A DNA stretch of 51,120 nt from a bacterium. GTDB lineage: Bacteria > Patescibacteriota > Patescibacteriia > UBA9934 > GWF2-40-263. Where the stretch lies: the NCBI GenBank assembly GCA_020057555.1, contig JAGVFR010000015.1, forward strand, positions 1 through 51,120. Reading direction: 5' to 3'. The translations under genes and the position numbers were made by a program. The notes below the pieces were generated by a model that was given only the letters and a program-made list of their open reading frames with translations, ran no database searches and had not been told where the DNA came from. Of the stretch, positions 9,336 to 32,735 are shown piece after piece; position 1 is the first letter of the stretch; every line of letters begins with the position of its first letter.

Positions 9336-9340
9336 ATGCT

Positions 9341-10192
9341 ATGCCAGTAAGACGATATAAACCAACAACTGCCGGACGTCGTATCTCAAGTGTAGATACG
9401 TTCGAAGATATTACACGCTCGAAACCCGAGCGTTCCTTAACGATCAAAAGAAAAAAGTTTTCTGGAAGAACAAATGGAAAGATAACAGTTCGTCATCGTG
9501 GAGGTGGAGAGGATCGACGAATTCGACTCATTGATTTCAAGCGTGACAAGTTCGAAATTATTGCGAAGGTTGCAACCATTGAATACGATCCAAACCGTGG
9601 AGCAAGAATCGCGCTTCTTCATTATTCCGACGGAGAAAAAAGATACATGATTGCTGCTATTGGAATGAAGGTTGGTGATCAGATTGTTTGTTCAAAACAA
9701 AAAGGCGAAATCCATACTGGAAATCGTTTTCAACTTCAGCATATCCCAGTTGGAATTGAAGTTTTTGACATTGAGTTAAGACCGGGAAAGGGAGCACAAA
9801 TGGTGCGAGGCGCAGGAACATTGGCGCAACTTATGGCTGTTGAAGGTGCATTTGCAACAATCAAACTTCCTTCTGGTGAAATGCGCATGGTGCCAAAAGA
9901 ATGTATGGCAACAGTTGGCCAAGTCTCAAACCCAGATCGACGCCTCATCCGTTGGGGAAAAGCTGGAAGAATGCGTCATCGTGGAATTAGACCATCAGTT
10001 CGAGGAAAAGCTATGAATCCTGTTGATCACCCACATGGCGGAGGAGAAGGAAAACATCCAATTGGTTTGAAACGTCCAAAAACACCATCTGGAAAACCAG
10101 CGCTTGGTGTTAAAACACGACGCAAGAAAGCGTCAGATCAATGGATTATTAAACGTCGTAAGTTGGGAAGATTTGTCGGTGGAGCAGCTTAA
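9341..10192 (+). CDS. rplB: 50S ribosomal protein L2
   Basis: [15 protein letters not shown] ... [13 protein letters not shown]. Confidence 0.98.
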
Positions 10193-10210
10193 ACCTGTTT
10201 AAAAGTATCT

Positions 10211-10561
10211 ATGTCACGAAGTCTTAAAAAAGGACCTTTTGTCCATCCAAGCATTATCAAAAAACTTGCCAAAGTCAGGCAAGGTGATCAAACACCCATC
10301 AAAACATGGGCGCGGTCTTCGACTATTACTCCTGAAATGGTTGGATTTACATTTGCCGTGCATAATGGAAAAGATTTCGTGAAGGTTCGCATTGTTGAAA
10401 ACATGGTCGGTTATAAACTTGGTGAGTTTTCACCAACACGAAAGTTTGTCCGCCATGGTGGAAAGGTCCAGAAGGAAGAAACAACAGGAGTAGGACTTTC
10501 AATGGGAGCACCAATAGCGCCAGCTTCTACACCAGCTGCTAAAGCAGCGCCAAAAAAATAA
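10211..10561 (+). CDS. rpsS: 30S ribosomal protein S19
   Basis: [19 protein letters not shown]; Ala/Pro-rich C-terminal extension. Confidence 0.97.
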
Positions 10562-10574
10562 ATAGCATTACATT

Positions 10575-10967
10575 ATGGAAGTAAAGGCAAGCGCGCGTTC
10601 AGTACGCATCTCACCACGAAAAATTCGATTAGTCATTGACGTAATCCGTGGTAAGAAAGTAGCTGAAGCGCAAGCACAACTGAAATTCATGAAAAAGGCG
10701 GCGGCATTGCCAGTTCTTAAACTTTTGAATTCAGCAATTGCAAACGCAAAGAATAATTTCAAACTGGATGAAACGACTTTGTATGTGAAAGAGATTGTTG
10801 GAAATGATGGTCAAACATTGCACCGATGGACATCCAAAGCAATGGGTCGTTCTTCACCGATTCGAAAGAGATCAACGCATATAATGATTGTGTTGGATGA
10901 AGGTGAAGGAAAAAAGAAGCTGAAAAAGCTTAGAAAGCTAAAGAAGCTGGAGAGTTTCGAAAAATAA
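10575..10967 (+). CDS. rplV: 50S ribosomal protein L22
   Basis: VRISPRKIRLVIDVIRGKKVAEAQAQL; Lys-rich C-terminal extension. Confidence 0.95.
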   Translation: MEVKASARSVRISPRKIRLVIDVIRGKKVAEAQAQLKFMKKAAALPVLKLLNSAIANAKNNFKLDETTLYVKEIVGNDGQTLHRWTSKAMGRSSPIRKRSTHIMIVLDEGEGKKKLKKLRKLKKLESFEK

Positions 10968-10968
10968 T

Positions 10969-11631
10969 ATGGGACACAAAGTTCATCCACGAGTATTCAG
11001 ATTAGGTGTCACCCGCGGCTGGGACGCGGTTTGGTTTGCTAATCGAAAACAATTCAAACAGAATCTTTCTGAAGATGTTAACATTCGCGCGTTTTTGAAA
11101 AAAGAACTCAAAGAAGCGCTTATGGATCGAATCGAAATGGAACGGTCAATGCAGAATTTGAAGATTTCAATCTTTGCGGCAAAACCGGGTCTTATTATCG
11201 GACGGGCTGGCTCTGGAATCGACGAATTGACAAAAAAGATTAAAGACAAGTTTTATCCAGGTAAACGCATTGGACTCAGTATCAACGTGAAAGAATTGAG
11301 ACAATCCTCGCTTTGTGCGAACGTGGTTGCTCAACAGATGGCGTTCGAAATTGAAAAGCGTATGCCATTTCGTCGTGTAATGAAGTCTGCTGTTGAACGT
11401 GTGATAAAAGCAGGCGCGCAAGGAGCAAAGGTAATTATTAGTGGAAGATTGAACGGCGCTGAAATTGCTCGCACAGAAATGATTGCTCAAGGAAAAACAC
11501 CACTTCATAACCTTCGTTCAGATATAGACTTTGCTTCAGTAAGAGCTCAAACTATCTGGGGAGCAATTGGAGTGAAAGTTTGGATAAACAGAGGTGAGGT
11601 TTTTGGAAGGGGAGAAGAGGAAAAAAGTTAA
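10969..11631 (+). CDS. rpsC: 30S ribosomal protein S3
   Basis: MGHKVHPRVFRLGVTRGWDAVWFANRK. Confidence 0.97.
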   Translation: MGHKVHPRVFRLGVTRGWDAVWFANRKQFKQNLSEDVNIRAFLKKELKEALMDRIEMERSMQNLKISIFAAKPGLIIGRAGSGIDELTKKIKDKFYPGKRIGLSINVKELRQSSLCANVVAQQMAFEIEKRMPFRRVMKSAVERVIKAGAQGAKVIISGRLNGAEIARTEMIAQGKTPLHNLRSDIDFASVRAQTIWGAIGVKVWINRGEVFGRGEEEKS

Positions 11632-11652
11632 AAGTGAGATGAAAAGATTAGT

Positions 11653-12072
11653 ATGCTTATTCCGAAAAAAGTCAAACATCGTAAATGGCACAAGGGCCGA
11701 GGTCGTAATAAACGTATTGCAACAACAAAAACTGCAATCGCGTTTGGGACATTCGGCATCAAAGCCACAACAGGCGCATGGGTAACCTCGCGTCAGATTG
11801 AGGCTGCCAGACGTGCAATGACACGCGCCATCAAACGCGGCGGAAAAATTTGGATTCGTATTTTCCCAGATAAGCCTGTTACTGCTAAAGGATCGGAAAT
11901 GCCTATGGGAAAAGGGAAAGGCGCGGTAGATCATTATGTTGCAATTGTGAGACCAGGAACAGTAATGTTTGAAATGGGTGGAATTGATGAAAAGTTAGCA
12001 AGACTTGCCCTTACACTTGCTGGACACAAGCTTCCAGTTAGAACAAGGATAATTTCTCGAGAAATGGAATAA
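11653..12072 (+). CDS. rplP: 50S ribosomal protein L16
   Basis: [38 protein letters not shown]. Confidence 0.97.
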
Positions 12073-12073
12073 T

Positions 12074-12256
12074 ATGGAAATGAAAACCTTACGCGAAAAA
12101 ACCAAAGAAGGACTTGCTCACGAGCTTGAACTTGCACGAACACATCTTAAAGAGCTTGAATTCAAGCGTGCGGCGAATCAATTAAAAAATGTCCGCGATA
12201 TAAGAAAGACAAAACAAACAATCGCGCGCATTCAGTCTCTTCTTTCTTCTAAATAA
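12074..12256 (+). CDS. rpmC: 50S ribosomal protein L29
   Basis: 60 aa helical protein in canonical position between L16 and S17. Confidence 0.92.
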
Positions 12257-12258
12257 AT

Positions 12259-12507
12259 ATGTCAACACAAAATCACAACTGTCGATCTCTTAAAGGAATC
12301 GTTGTTTCTGACAAAATGGAAAAGACGATCGTTGTTCGTGTTGATCGAACAGTTGTTCATCCGAAATATGGCAAGCGTTATGTAAGAAGCAAGAAGTATC
12401 ACGTACATGACGAAAAAAAGGCATTCAAAGTTGGAGACACAGTTACGTTTCAAGAATGCCGTCCATATTCTAAAACAAAAAGATGGATTGTTGTTCGTTC
12501 AGCATAA
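12259..12507 (+). CDS. rpsQ: 30S ribosomal protein S17
   Basis: [29 protein letters not shown]. Confidence 0.96.
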
Positions 12508-12513
12508 ACTTAT

Positions 12514-12885
12514 ATGGTACAGCTACGATCAATGTTAAAAGTTGCCGATAACACAGGCGCGAAAAAGCTTGGAGTCATTCGCGTACTTGGCGGTTACCAA
12601 AAACGATATGCAACTATTGGTGATCTTGTTGTTGCGTCTGTTAAAGAGGCTGTGCCACATGCAAGCGTAAAAAAGAGTGATGTCGTTACAGCGGTAATTG
12701 TGCGAACATGTAAAGAAATTCGACGAAAGGATGGAACGTATATTCGTTTCAGCGAAAACGCCGCTGTTATAATTGATAAAAAAACAAAAGAACCAAAAGG
12801 CACACGCATCTTTGGGCCAATTGCTCGCGAGTTGCGTGCTGGTGGATATACAAAAATAATCTCACTAGCACCTGAAGTTTTGTAA
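12514..12885 (+). CDS. rplN: 50S ribosomal protein L14
   Basis: [27 protein letters not shown]. Confidence 0.98.
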
Positions 12886-12889
12886 AAGT

Positions 12890-13213
12890 ATGAAAATCAA
12901 AACAGGAGACAAAGTGAAGATACTAACTGGAAAAGACCGTGGAAAAGAAGGGGTCATTATTCAGGTTTTTCCAAAGGTTGAACGAGTGGTGGTTGAAGGG
13001 ATCAACATGATGACGCGACACTTGCGAAAACGCGCGAATCATCCAGGACAAAAAATTCAATTTGCTTCACCTCTTCACATCTCAAACGTGAAACTCATTT
13101 CACCAAAAAGTGGAAATAGTGGAAGAGTAGGATATAAAAAAATTGAAGCTGATGGAAAAATGCGAAAAATTCGCGTGATCAAATCAAAAGGTATAAAAGA
13201 GGACGTAGAATAA
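12890..13213 (+). CDS. rplX: 50S ribosomal protein L24
   Basis: KIKTGDKVKILTGKDRGKEGVIIQVFP (KOW). Confidence 0.96.
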   Translation: MKIKTGDKVKILTGKDRGKEGVIIQVFPKVERVVVEGINMMTRHLRKRANHPGQKIQFASPLHISNVKLISPKSGNSGRVGYKKIEADGKMRKIRVIKSKGIKEDVE

Positions 13214-13220
13214 AGTAAAT

Positions 13221-13302
13221 TCGTTACGGAATTACGGAAAGTACCGATATACAGATAAGACAACATTCCGTATATCAGTAATATCCGTACATCCGTAACA
13301 AC
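13221..13302 (+). repeat. Fold-back degenerate 8-nt tandem array upstream of rplE
   Basis: TTACGGAA TTACGGAA ... GATATAC ... GTATATC ... ATCCGTAC ATCCGTAAC; outer GTTACGGA/TCCGTAAC perfectly complementary. Confidence 0.65.
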
Positions 13303-13307
13303 CATTT

Positions 13308-13844
13308 ATGGCTTTGAAAGAGACTTACAAAAAAGAAATTATTCCTAAACTCATGAAAGAGTTTGGGTATAAAAATGTAAACGCTGTTCCAAGTGTAAAA
13401 GCGGTCACTCTTAATATTGGAATTGGTCCTGGACTTAAGGATGCGAAATACACGGAAACAGCAGAGCAAACGCTAATTCGCATTACTGGCCAGAAGCCAA
13501 TTAAAACCCTTGCTCGAAAATCAATTTCAGCTTTCAAAATCCGAGAAGGAATGGTTGTTGGAATGAAAGTAACAATGCGAGGAAAAAGAATGTGGACGTT
13601 TTTAGACAAGCTCCTCCATGTGTCACTTCCGCGCGTAAGAGATTTTCGAGGGCTTTCACCAAAAGCTTTTGACGGAAACGGAAATTATTCAATCGGGTTC
13701 AAAGAACATACTGCCTTTCCAGAAATTCGAAGCGACGAAATTGAAACGATTCACGGCTTGCAAGTGACGATTGGAACAACAGCAAAGTCTAATAAAGAAG
13801 CAGAAGCTCTACTTAAACACCTCGGTCTACCTCTTACGAAATAA
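13308..13844 (+). CDS. rplE: 50S ribosomal protein L5
   Basis: Canonical uL5: [35 protein letters not shown]. Confidence 0.97.
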
Positions 13845-13846
13845 TT

Positions 13847-14032
13847 ATGGCAACGGAAAATCAAATTGCTAAATCCAGACAAAAGCCGAAATTCTCCACA
13901 CGTGCGGTGAATCGCTGTTGGCGATGCGGTAGACATCGTGGATATATTCGTGTGTTTGGACTTTGCCGTATTTGTTTCCGAGAACTTGCGAATCGAGGTG
14001 AAATTCCAGGTATAAGAAAATCGAGCTGGTAA
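13847..14032 (+). CDS. rpsZ: 30S ribosomal protein S14, zinc (type Z) form
   Basis: [25 protein letters not shown] four-cysteine zinc site; 61 aa. Confidence 0.96.
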
Positions 14033-14041
14033 ACTTTATCT

Positions 14042-14165
14042 GATCTTTGCAAAACTTGATGAGATTTCGACGCGCGGGGGAAACAAATGTCGAGGCGTAA
14101 TGAAAATTACAGTGAGACATTTGTGGGGCCCCGTAAGTCGAAATAACGCGAGTTTTGCGAAGATC
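14042..14165 (+). promoter_or_regulatory. Large coaxial RNA hairpin in the rpsZ-rpsH spacer
   Basis: GATCTTTGCAAAACT(14042)/AGTTTTGCGAAGATC(14151); ATTTCGAC(14064)/GTCGAAAT(14137); ACAAATGTC(14083)/GACATTTGT(14116); GTAAT-gaaa-ATTAC(14097-14110). Confidence 0.75.
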
Positions 14166-14170
14166 CCAAT

Positions 14171-14563
14171 ATGATTACAGACCCAATTTCCGATATGCTT
14201 ACGCGCATTCGTAATGCGCAGCAAGTAAAAAAAGAAGTCATAACCCTTCCTTCCTCGAAGATCAAATTTCATATTGCAAAAATATTAGAGGCCGAAGGGT
14301 ATGTAGGAAAAGTTGAAGAAATAAAAGGTGAAAAATTTCCAGAACTTCGCCTTGTTTTGAAGTACGATAACAAACAACCATACATTCGAATGATCAAGCG
14401 AATCAGCAAACCTGGAAATCGAGTGTACGCGAAATCGACTGAATTGCCACGAGTGTTGTCTGATATTGGAATTGCAATCATTTCTACACCAAATGGACTC
14501 ATGACTAACAAAGAAGCGCGAGCACGCAGACTTGGTGGAGAAATAATCTGCGAGATTTCATAA
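14171..14563 (+). CDS. rpsH: 30S ribosomal protein S8
   Basis: MITDPISDMLTRIRNAQQVKKEVITLPSSKIK. Confidence 0.97.
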   Translation: MITDPISDMLTRIRNAQQVKKEVITLPSSKIKFHIAKILEAEGYVGKVEEIKGEKFPELRLVLKYDNKQPYIRMIKRISKPGNRVYAKSTELPRVLSDIGIAIISTPNGLMTNKEARARRLGGEIICEIS

Positions 14564-14579
14564 TTCTTTCTTCCAACAT

Positions 14580-15140
14580 ATGTCACGCATTGGAAAACAA
14601 CCAGTAATAATTCCAGACGGAGTTACAGTGTCTGTTCAAGGACAGACAGTTACCGTCAAAGGACCAAAAGGAGAACTTGTTCAAAAGTTCAACTCTGCTG
14701 TTAATATTGCTCTGAAAGAAGAGGATGGAATCAAAACAATTGTTGTGACTGTTGCTGATGAAACAGACAAATTTTTGCGTGCACAATGGGGAACAGTGCG
14801 AGCAATCATACAAAACATGGTAAAAGGTGTTGTTGAATTTTTTTCAAGTCAACTCGAAGTAAACGGAGTTGGTTATCGTGTAAACATGAAAGGAAAGGAT
14901 ATTGTTTTGAACATTGGATTTTCGCATGAAGTTCCTTTCATTATTCCAAAAGGAATTGAAGCATCTGTTGAAGGAAATTTAATAACGATAAAAGGCGCTA
15001 ACAAGCATTTGGTAGGAGAAATTGCGGCTAACATTCGTCGAATTAGAAAACCAGAACCATATAAAGGAAAAGGAATTAAATACATTGGAGAAGTGGTTCG
15101 TCGTAAATCAGGTAAAGCGCAAAAAGCTGCGGCAGCATAA
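14580..15140 (+). CDS. rplF: 50S ribosomal protein L6
   Basis: MSRIGKQPVIIPDGVTV ... KPEPYKGKGIKYIGE. Confidence 0.97.
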   Translation: MSRIGKQPVIIPDGVTVSVQGQTVTVKGPKGELVQKFNSAVNIALKEEDGIKTIVVTVADETDKFLRAQWGTVRAIIQNMVKGVVEFFSSQLEVNGVGYRVNMKGKDIVLNIGFSHEVPFIIPKGIEASVEGNLITIKGANKHLVGEIAANIRRIRKPEPYKGKGIKYIGEVVRRKSGKAQKAAAA

Positions 15141-15169
15141 GAAGTTATTCGTGACGACAATCAAAAGGT

Positions 15170-15526
15170 ATGTCCAAAAATATCAAACTCAAACAGGTTC
15201 ACGCTTTACGACGCGCACATAGAACACGCGCTCGGATTTCAGGCACTTCTGATTGTCCTCGTTTGAGTGTTAAGCGAAGTTTGAAGCACATCTACGCACA
15301 GCTAATTGATGACACATCAGGCAAAACACTTGCTTCGTCTTCAGACAAAGATATAGAAGTCAAAGCAAAACCTGTTGAAATTGCAAAAGCTGTTGGGAAG
15401 AAACTTGCTGAAAAAGCTGTTGAAAAAGGTTTGAAGAAAGCTGTGTTTGACAGAGGTTCTTATCGTTATCATGGACGCGTGGCGGCCATTGCAGAGGGCG
15501 CGCGTGAAGGTGGGCTCAAGATATAA
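15170..15526 (+). CDS. rplR: 50S ribosomal protein L18
   Basis: [34 protein letters not shown]. Confidence 0.96.
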
Positions 15527-15527
15527 T

Positions 15528-16193
15528 ATGACCGAACAGCAACCAACAACTCAAGCTCAAACTACTGAACCAGCAAAACAAGTTGCGCCTCGTTCAGGTA
15601 ATCGAAATTCAAGAGGTGGTGGAGATCAAAGAAATCGAGGTGGAAATCGTCGTGGTGGTGAAGGTGGAGGAGGTCGTGGTAGGGCGCGAGGAAAAACTCA
15701 ACAAGTTCGAGAATACGAACAAAAGATTTTGGATTTAGCGCGAGTCACTCGTGTGACTGCTGGAGGAAAACGAATGTCTTTCCGCGCCGCACTTGTGATT
15801 GGTGATAAAAAAGGAAAAGTTGGACTTGGAGTTGCAAAGGGCGCAGACGTTCAAATTGCTGTTGAAAAAGCTTATCGTCAAGCAAAGAAAAACATCATTA
15901 CAGTTCCGATTGAAAACGAAACCATTCCACACGCGGTTTTGGTAAAAGAGGGTTCAGCAATTGTTTTGCTTAAACCAGCACCAAAAGGAACTGGACTTAA
16001 AACTGGTGGAGCTGTACGAACAGTGCTCGAGTACGCAGGTGTGCCAAACGTTGTATCGCGCGTTCTCAATTCTTCAAATAAAATCAACATTGCACGAGCA
16101 GCGCTTTCTGCTCTTCAGCAATTTGGAAGTAAAGGAAAGAGAATGAATAAAAATATTGAAATTGAAGAAATCAAATCAACTTCGAATGAATAA
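15528..16193 (+). CDS. rpsE: 30S ribosomal protein S5 with RGG-rich N-terminal extension
   Basis: Core VTRVTAGGKRMSFRAALVIGDKKGKVGLGVAKG; start ATG 15528 just after rplR stop. Confidence 0.96.
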   Translation: MTEQQPTTQAQTTEPAKQVAPRSGNRNSRGGGDQRNRGGNRRGGEGGGGRGRARGKTQQVREYEQKILDLARVTRVTAGGKRMSFRAALVIGDKKGKVGLGVAKGADVQIAVEKAYRQAKKNIITVPIENETIPHAVLVKEGSAIVLLKPAPKGTGLKTGGAVRTVLEYAGVPNVVSRVLNSSNKINIARAALSALQQFGSKGKRMNKNIEIEEIKSTSNE

Positions 16194-16196
16194 CAT

Positions 16197-16640
16197 ATGT
16201 TGACACTTCAGTCGCTAAAACCAAAAAAAGGATCAAGAAAAACCAAGAAACGAGTTGGTCGTGGTTTGGGATCAACAGGTTCGTACTCAGGTCGTGGTGT
16301 AAAAGGTCAGCGTGCGCGCTCTGGAGGTCGTTCAGGCCTTAAATTGAGAGGCTTGCGGGGTATCATGCTATCGACACCAAAACATCGAGGGTTTCAAAGT
16401 ATAAAAACAAAACTCAGTGTTGTGAATGTGTTAGAGCTTGCAAAACATTTTGTAAACGGCGCGAAAGTTACAAAAAAATTATTACAGCAAAAAGGTTTAG
16501 TGACTGAAATTGATTCTGGTGTTAAAATTTTAGGGTCAGGAGAAATCGGAATTGCACTCACAATTGAAGGGTGCGAAGTTTCTCAAGTTGCAAAACAAAA
16601 AATTGAAAAAGCTGGTGGTGTGGTAATTGGAATCAAATAA
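16197..16640 (+). CDS. rplO: 50S ribosomal protein L15
   Basis: LKPKKGSRKTKKRVGRGLGSTGSYSGRGVKGQRARSG. Confidence 0.97.
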   Translation: MLTLQSLKPKKGSRKTKKRVGRGLGSTGSYSGRGVKGQRARSGGRSGLKLRGLRGIMLSTPKHRGFQSIKTKLSVVNVLELAKHFVNGAKVTKKLLQQKGLVTEIDSGVKILGSGEIGIALTIEGCEVSQVAKQKIEKAGGVVIGIK

Positions 16641-16642
16641 TT

Positions 16643-17905
16643 ATGAACACAATCATTCGCATTTGGAAAACACGCGAAGTGCGCAAAAGCATTTTGTTCG
16701 TTATTCTCATGCTGGTTGTGTTTAGAATTGCCGCGCATATTCCAGTTCCGGGCGTTGACGCTTCAGCGCTGAAAGATATTTTTTCAGGAAACCAATTGTT
16801 TGGTCTTTTGAATATTTTTTCTGGTGGAACTTTAGAGAATTTTTCAATTGTCGCAATGGGAGTTGCGCCATATATCACAGCATCAATTATTTTTCAGTTG
16901 CTTGCGATGATCATTCCTTCTCTTGAGGAAATGAATAAGGAAGAACAAGGCCGTCAAAAAATGAATCAGTGGACACGGCTTGCAACAGTCCCGCTTGGAA
17001 TTATTCAAGGCTATGGTCTTATTATTTTGATGTCGCAGAATGGTTCGTTTTTTCAGGATAAAGATGCGCTTACAATGTTTTTTGCGATTCTCACAATGAC
17101 TGCCGGAACAATTTTTCTTATGTGGATTGGAGAGTTGATTTCAGAGAAGAATGTTGGAAACGGAATTTCAATTTTAATTTTGGCTGGAATTATTGCAGGA
17201 CTTCCAACGCTTTTGAGTCAGACATTGTCAGTTTATGATCGCTCGCAACTCATCACACTAATTTTGTTTGTCGTGGTCGCTGTTGTGACAATCATTGGAA
17301 TTGTGATCATGAATGAAGCACAGAGAAACATTCCTGTTCAATACGCGCGTCATATTCAGGGTGCTCGGTTGTCAGGTGCTGTGACTTCGCACATTCCGCT
17401 TAGACTTAACATGAGCGGTGTTATCCCGATTATTTTCGCGATCTCGATTATTTTATTTCCAACGGTTATCGCGCAATTTTTCTTGAGCGCAAAAACAGAA
17501 CTATTACAAAATATAGCAGAGCAAACAGTTCAATTATTCCAAAACCAACTTTTTTACGGCATCACTTATTTCGTGTTGGTATTTTTATTTGCGTATTTTT
17601 ATACAGCAGTTGTTTTTCATCCTGATCAAGTTGCGGAAAATATTCAGAAACAGGGCGGGTTCATTCCAGGCATTCGTCCTGGGAAAAATACTTCTGAATA
17701 TCTTGGATTGGTTTCAAGTCGCATATTGTTGCTCGGCGCAACTTTTCTTTCTGTGATCGCTGTTTTACCTCTTGTTGTCCAACAGGTTACAGGAAATCCA
17801 AACTTGGTGATTGGCGGAACGTCTATTTTGATTATTGTTTCGGTTGTTATTGATGCTATGAAGCAGATAGAGTCGCAGTTGTCCATGCGTGAATACGACG
17901 CGTAA
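16643..17905 (+). CDS. secY: Preprotein translocase subunit SecY
   Basis: Multi-TM; HIPVPGVD, MSGVIPIIFA, QGGFIPGIRPG. Confidence 0.98.
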   Translation: MNTIIRIWKTREVRKSILFVILMLVVFRIAAHIPVPGVDASALKDIFSGNQLFGLLNIFSGGTLENFSIVAMGVAPYITASIIFQLLAMIIPSLEEMNKEEQGRQKMNQWTRLATVPLGIIQGYGLIILMSQNGSFFQDKDALTMFFAILTMTAGTIFLMWIGELISEKNVGNGISILILAGIIAGLPTLLSQTLSVYDRSQLITLILFVVVAVVTIIGIVIMNEAQRNIPVQYARHIQGARLSGAVTSHIPLRLNMSGVIPIIFAISIILFPTVIAQFFLSAKTELLQNIAEQTVQLFQNQLFYGITYFVLVFLFAYFYTAVVFHPDQVAENIQKQGGFIPGIRPGKNTSEYLGLVSSRILLLGATFLSVIAVLPLVVQQVTGNPNLVIGGTSILIIVSVVIDAMKQIESQLSMREYDA

Positions 17906-32386: not shown

Positions 32387-32463
32387 TGGTTGCGGGGGTT
32401 GGATTTGAACCAACGACCTCAAGGTTATGAGCCTCGCGAGCTGCCAGGCTGCTCTACCCCGCG
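32387..32463 (-). tRNA. Initiator tRNA-fMet (CAT)
   Basis: CGCGGGGTAGAGCAGCCTGGCAGCTCGCGAGGCTCATAACCTTGAGGTCGTTGGTTCAAATCCAACCCCCGCAACCA; C1:A72 mismatch, A11:U24; encoded CCA. Confidence 0.95.
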
Positions 32464-32543
32464 CGTGCAGTTTAAGGAAAAGACTGAACATTGTCAAGAA
32501 ATCAAAGATTTGTTATTCTACAAATCGCCGTTGACGTTTACGT

Positions 32544-32628
<85 letters not shown>

Positions 32629-32658
32629 TGTCGACGTTCAATTTTGGAAGTTTTATAT

Positions 32659-32735
32659 GGCTGGGTAGCTCAGTTGGTTAGAGCGAGGGACTCATAAGCC
32701 CTAGGTCGTGGGTTCGATTCCCACCCCAGCTACCA
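32659..32735 (+). tRNA. tRNA-Met (CAT), elongator type
   Basis: GGCTGGGTAGCTCAGTTGGTTAGAGCGAGGGACTCATAAGCCCTAGGTCGTGGGTTCGATTCCCACCCCAGCTACCA. Confidence 0.92.

Follow-up and report, generated by a model that had tools for sequence, protein, structure and literature searches.

The window, the 51,120-nucleotide stretch of DNA analyzed here, comes from an 849-kb Candidatus Uhrbacteria-like genome (G000) and includes the spc/S10 region. In this region, rpsZ (S14) and rpsH (S8) are separated by a gap of 138 nt, and one near-continuous hairpin is located in the gap at positions 14042–14165. The first-pass annotation had described a 124-nt, nearly continuous hairpin here with four helices of 15 (one G-U), 8, 9, and 5 bp and a GAAA loop. 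Folding of this segment recovered all of these parts, with an MFE of −65.3 kcal/mol. The mean of 200 dinucleotide shuffles was −28.0 ± 3.7 kcal/mol (z −10.06), and 0 of the 200 were as good. The fold also contained a 6-bp helix that the annotation had overlooked, and the coordinates agreed with its placing of the hairpin end 5 nt upstream of the rpsH ATG (14171). The features are listed in Table 1.

Table 1. Features of the rpsZ–rpsH hairpin and related sites
Feature	Position	Strand	Basis or remark
rpsZ (S14), gene upstream of hairpin	13847–14032	+	ORF and product
rpsH (S8), gene downstream of hairpin	14171–14563	+	ORF; homologs in 42 of 43 family genomes
Whole element, very probably a mobile hairpin	14041–14166	+	Model positions 1–126; covariance model R1, 114.4 bits; covariance model R2, 80.9 bits; fold z −10
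Element termini, equivalent to GAGACC...GGTCTC of other copies	14040–14167		
Outer 15-bp helix, left arm	14042–14056	+	Pairs with 14151–14165, one G-U; fold
Outer helix, right arm	14151–14165	+	Stops 5 nt short of rpsH ATG; fold
Internal-loop side TGATGAG	14057–14063	+	Conserved; near-invariant columns of alignment A1
8-bp helix (14064–14071/14137–14144) and 6-bp helix (14074–14079/14129–14134)	14064–14144	+	Fold; compensatory pairs in A1
Inner region: 9-bp helix (14083–14091/14116–14124), GA...GA mismatch loop, apical GTAAT-GAAA-ATTAC hairpin (5-bp helix, 14097–14101/14106–14110)	14083–14124	+	Fold and cross-class comparison
Empty rplW–rplB site	9336–9340	+	5-nt gap in G000; G001 and G002 carry a copy there
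tRNA-abutting copies: L138, L146, L159–L161, L164, L167, L168, L170, L171, L009			

The annotation had put most other spc gaps at 1–30 nt. Most of them were −2 to 29 nt, but the rplX–rplE gap was 94 nt. It had also reported no clear Shine-Dalgarno (SD) sequence at rpsH. This was correct and nothing special, since a simple motif test on 18 genes around rpsH found none with one; the missing SD is thus not informative about rpsH. These were 18 consecutive genes of the spc/S10 region (9341–17905), and their starts were preceded by short A/T-rich stretches, e.g., AATATG. Elsewhere in the window, three tRNA genes, one of them on the other strand, were located within less than 350 bp (32390–32732). 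In two other genomes, G001 (L233) and G036 (L252), a short similar sequence (TTCGACAAGCTCACT and TTCGACTACGCTCACT, respectively) was found immediately upstream of the rpsH ATG. It looks like another small repeat.

Sequence and covariance-model searches, of the kind the annotation had proposed, were run, and the many copies found backed its mobile palindrome. Blastn over the relatives detected copies in 14 of 97 genomes. With covariance model R1, for which 28 copies were used, they were detected in 63 of the 97, with at least 36 copies in the richest genome and seven in G000. The named R1 matches were almost all Candidatus Uhrbacteria. The element length was nearly constant, being 123–130 nt in most copies. 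Covariance model R2 was built from 13 sequences, all of other Patescibacteria classes. It recovered the window copy on the + strand, and the opposite strand gave no match. R2 matched 65 of 384 Patescibacteria genomes; within the order of G246, it matched 22 of 50. No Rfam family matched the element at the gathering score, and none was convincing below it.

The flanks of 96 copies were aligned. The element ended at GAGACC...GGTCTC. Exact 4-bp target duplications were observed in 14 of the 96 copies (0.9 expected), and exact 5-bp duplications in nine (0.28 expected). An example is L136, [ACTA]GAGACC..GGTCCC[ACTA]. The flanks of the window copy contained no recognizable target duplication. For the distant-class copies, whose ends were heterogeneous, no consistent target duplication was readable.

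Filled and empty sites were also compared. G000 and G002 carried a copy at the rpsZ–rpsH site, which was empty in their congener G001 (gap ~16 nt); G027 also carried one there, and its congener G015 did not (gap 7 nt). At the rplW–rplB site, G000 was the empty one (Table 1). A site 3′ of a holin-like gene was filled in G000 and G015 and empty in their nearest relatives, G002 and G027. This pattern at three sites indicates repeated insertion or repeated loss at given sites. Insertion into pre-existing palindromes was rejected, as only L190 and L127 fit and there was no overall excess. The L190 copy (1504–1630) interrupts the loop of a hairpin resembling a terminator (AAGCACCC..GGGTGCTT), and the sequence around CGTGT is duplicated there.

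The ~18-bp end of the element recurred in IS5/IS1182-type insertion sequences (ISs; DUF772 + DDE_Tnp_1) of the same family of bacteria. L283 had both ends: GAGACCACTGCAAAACTC and, 1.34 kb away, its imperfect inverted copy, with a transposase between them. L286 and L281 had one end each (GAGACCTCTGCAAAACTC and GAGACCGTTGAAAAACTC, respectively), ~75–90 bp upstream of a DUF772 transposase. The L286 transposase matched NCBIfam IS5_4 at 185 bits, and L281 was placed in the window's own genus. Given the ends at these three loci, the left arm of the outer helix is the counterpart of the ~18-bp terminal inverted repeat. The shared end was present at three of the five DUF772 loci examined. The match stopped after ~18 terminal bp, and the interiors of element and IS were unrelated. 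We infer the dependence on this transposase from the end similarity over these ~18 bp. Other DDE_Tnp_1 transposases were rejected as partners because, the DUF772 type excepted, their loci had no matching ends. A pair of ends 1.3 kb apart in G013:C4 (L285) was rejected as an IS; it enclosed an ordinary gene that lay between two other small repeats. G000 encoded neither the DUF772 nor the DDE_Tnp_1 Pfam family, which probably leaves its copies immobile at present and the window copy fixed in place.

Other small palindromic repeats, which shared the GAGACCTCTGCAAAA ends and had unrelated interiors (e.g., ATCCCGAGCGCAGCGAGGGATC), were observed at L285:391–542, L291:216–377, and L297:151–311, indicating that several MITE families use one IS end. 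In other classes (L406, L409, L419, L434, and others), many copies carried a different end, TAGGACTTACGC, suggesting that those copies may be partnered with a different IS.

The element was ~125 nt, non-coding, and multi-copy, and it had terminal inverted repeats, target duplications, IS-shared ends, and occupied and empty sites, all of which are features of a MITE. The suggestion of a small palindromic mobile element was borne out by the copy number, the target duplications, presence or absence in sister species, and the IS-shared ends. It is very probable, and well supported, that the element is MITE-like and mobile.

The interior was atypical of a MITE, with a constant length and conserved internal loops. 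In alignment A1, the internal-loop family consensus was CGATGAGAT opposite AAGATCGCG; the right side of this loop was degenerate in the window copy (14143–14150). A compensatory change was observed in 33 of 51 pairs of A1, and 93% of the cells were paired. Covariation in A1 was 0.413, above both the shuffled (0.174) and the slid (at most 0.10) controls, as in a structured RNA. In matches from other classes, the stems were almost wholly different and the layout was unchanged, with a conserved GA-nCGUA...UACGn-GA core. The CGUA...UACG part was the best conserved of the element across classes. Alignment A3, of the distant classes, had compensatory changes in 41 of 51 pairs and a covariation of 0.749 versus 0.203 shuffled; such covariance alignments are biased towards their own model. 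The annotation had treated covariation and multiple copies as alternatives. Each was observed, and both are true at once. It had also named sequence-identical multi-copy repeats as evidence against its reading, but the copies were non-identical and their stems differed by compensatory changes.

G.U and A.C pairs were counted in the stems of 97 copies. The ratio was 300:37, and it was 104:32 once pairs with at least 20% G.U were dropped. Twenty-eight pair columns favored G.U and six favored A.C. The ratio was 106:12 when the neighboring gene ran with the element and 102:12 when it ran against it; this equality indicates that current transcription-linked mutation is not the cause. The distant classes showed the same direction (165:60). 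G.U and A.C are equivalent under strand exchange in double-stranded DNA, so the excess points to selection on a single strand. A single-stranded DNA stage would fit equally, and RNA is the simpler inference.

These data bear on two other readings. An ordinary MITE, with no RNA function, could keep its palindrome because transposon ends must match and because quasi-palindromes are corrected by template switching. The target duplications and IS-like ends agree with it, as do outer stems that vary together within each copy and the lack of orientation bias among co-directional genes. However, the mismatched internal loops were conserved rather than corrected, the inner stems far from the ends covaried, also in classes with other ends, and G.U exceeded A.C on one strand whatever the gene orientation. 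We consider this reading unlikely. A REPIN- or attC-like hairpin of single-stranded DNA, recognized by either a Y1 transposase or an integron integrase, would explain why the fold was kept rather than the sequence, and G.T pairs would likewise be kept in single-stranded DNA. The target duplications and DDE-type IS ends argue against it; Y1 transposase and integron integrase systems are not known to make target duplications. This reading is very improbable.

Conservation in place was then compared with neighboring genes. Four orthologous insertions in the genus diverged by 5.5–9.4%, versus 32–47% at four-fold sites of the neighboring genes. For the window copy, the divergence between G000 and G002 was 7.8%, versus 32% at four-fold sites. 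The changes in the orthologous insertions comprised 12 one-sided pair-keeping changes, four compensatory changes, three A.C breaks, and five other breaks. Thus, 16 changes kept pairs versus eight that broke them. The family structure was used for these counts, since no broken pairs at all were counted with a pairwise consensus fold, which is biased to kept pairs. In G001, some paralogs were closer (3–5%) than orthologs (9%), so gene conversion could account for part of this conservation. The ortholog of the window copy was closer (7%) than its nearest G000 paralog (18%). Taken together, selection seems likely to act on the folded hairpin in single-stranded form, probably as RNA.

The position of the copies relative to genes was analyzed. 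Between co-directional genes, orientation was even (33 vs 34). Placement was nonetheless polar: of 96 copies, 50 had their 3′ end against a gene edge (a start, a tRNA 5′ end, or an antisense stop), and 15 had their 5′ end there (p about 1e-7); gene edges came from a simple coding score, and single cases may be wrong. Eleven copies ended 1–7 nt before a tRNA gene, all 11 in sense (Table 1). Copies also ended 3–6 nt before other gene starts, including that of rplB. Overall, the copies lay, in either orientation, before tRNAs and a wide range of unrelated genes.

The annotation had also proposed autoregulation by S8 or another r-protein. In the S8 case, the mRNA would mimic 16S helix 21 and be bound by S8, and the hairpin does lie directly 5′ of rpsH. 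However, copies also preceded tRNAs, rplB, and many unrelated genes in both orientations, the rpsH site was empty in most relatives, and Rfam gave no ribosomal-protein leader matches. An S8 or r-protein leader was ruled out by the copy distribution and the empty sites, as the element is not restricted to cognate operons; S8 autoregulation is extremely improbable.

The third reading in the annotation, an RNase processing site, may apply, and the genome encodes RNase III. A tentative possibility is that the window copy was co-opted as a leader or operon-internal control of rpsH, acting through start occlusion or RNase III processing. The distance of 5 nt to the ATG, the low in-place divergence between G000 and G002, the similar spacing of copies before rplB and other starts and before the sense tRNAs, and an RNase III gene in the genome are consistent with this. 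On the other hand, G001, G015, and most relatives lacked a copy at the site and have a working operon all the same, the window insertion was common to two genomes only, and gene conversion was not fully excluded at other sites.

Our preferred reading, which we hold to be distinctly probable, is a non-autonomous transposon of ~125 bp whose hairpin is selected as a single strand, probably RNA, and not a switch dedicated to rpsH. An IS5/IS1182-type (DUF772 + DDE) transposase would have moved the element. Selection on a single-stranded, most likely transcribed, molecule would keep the interior fold. At rpsZ–rpsH, the hairpin must be co-transcribed, and it lies against the rpsH start. The simplest way to a tolerable or even useful hairpin there may be an RNase III-like dsRNA nuclease or a loop-binding protein, which is conjecture; G000 encodes RNase III. 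Several points run counter to this reading. The IS match covers only ~18 terminal bp, at three of five DUF772 loci; if a particular RNA strand were important everywhere, the even split of orientations between co-directional genes would be odd; and gene conversion could contribute, given the close G001 paralogs. A wider reading, which we regard as doubtful, is a phylum-wide mobile family with the folded RNA as its conserved unit, in which stems and transposon ends turn over and architecture and loops persist. Each copy would then supply a host transcript with a recognized structure, e.g., a structure that fixes the 5′ end of whichever gene or tRNA follows.

ERIC (IRU, RU-1) is a 127-bp enterobacterial MITE, intergenic, multi-copy, non-autonomous, and nearly completely palindromic, whose transcripts are predicted to form one long stem-loop (PMC2229807, PMC10969869). 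Correia elements (NEMIS) of Neisseria are small palindromic mobile elements beside genes, and their transcript is cleaved by RNase III (PMC2229807, PMC2649163). The present element resembles ERIC in its size (~127 bp), intergenic location, near-complete palindrome, copy number, and non-autonomy. By description, it differs from ERIC in its ends, its host phylum, and its target, which is 4(–5) bp, whereas that of ERIC is TA-type. Cross-class covariation and a strand-specific G.U excess were measured for the present element. It resembles NEMIS as a small palindromic mobile element adjoining genes and is set apart by description through its host phylum; for RNase III cleavage of a transcript, NEMIS offers a precedent. 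Similar to IS5/IS1182-type ISs, it has the terminal inverted repeat GAGACCTCTGCAAAACTC over ~18 bp and short target duplications; unlike them, it has no transposase and an unrelated interior. Like Rfam structured RNAs, it has covarying stems and conserved internal loops, but it matches no family. The literature search, with subscription papers and ISfinder outside its scope, returned ERIC and NEMIS as analogues and no description of this element family.

If our reading is right, Rfam lacks a large family of structured elements from a phylum whose mobile DNA and RNA processing are little known. The family would combine transposon-like ends with an interior that evolves like an RNA gene. With it, one could test directly whether selection on bacterial MITEs concerns the RNA that they add to host transcripts, and the element loops could be used to look for the protein involved. 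Longer members of the family were also observed: L298:243–482 (240 nt) and L299:209–374 (166 nt) contained extra hairpins nested within the family architecture.
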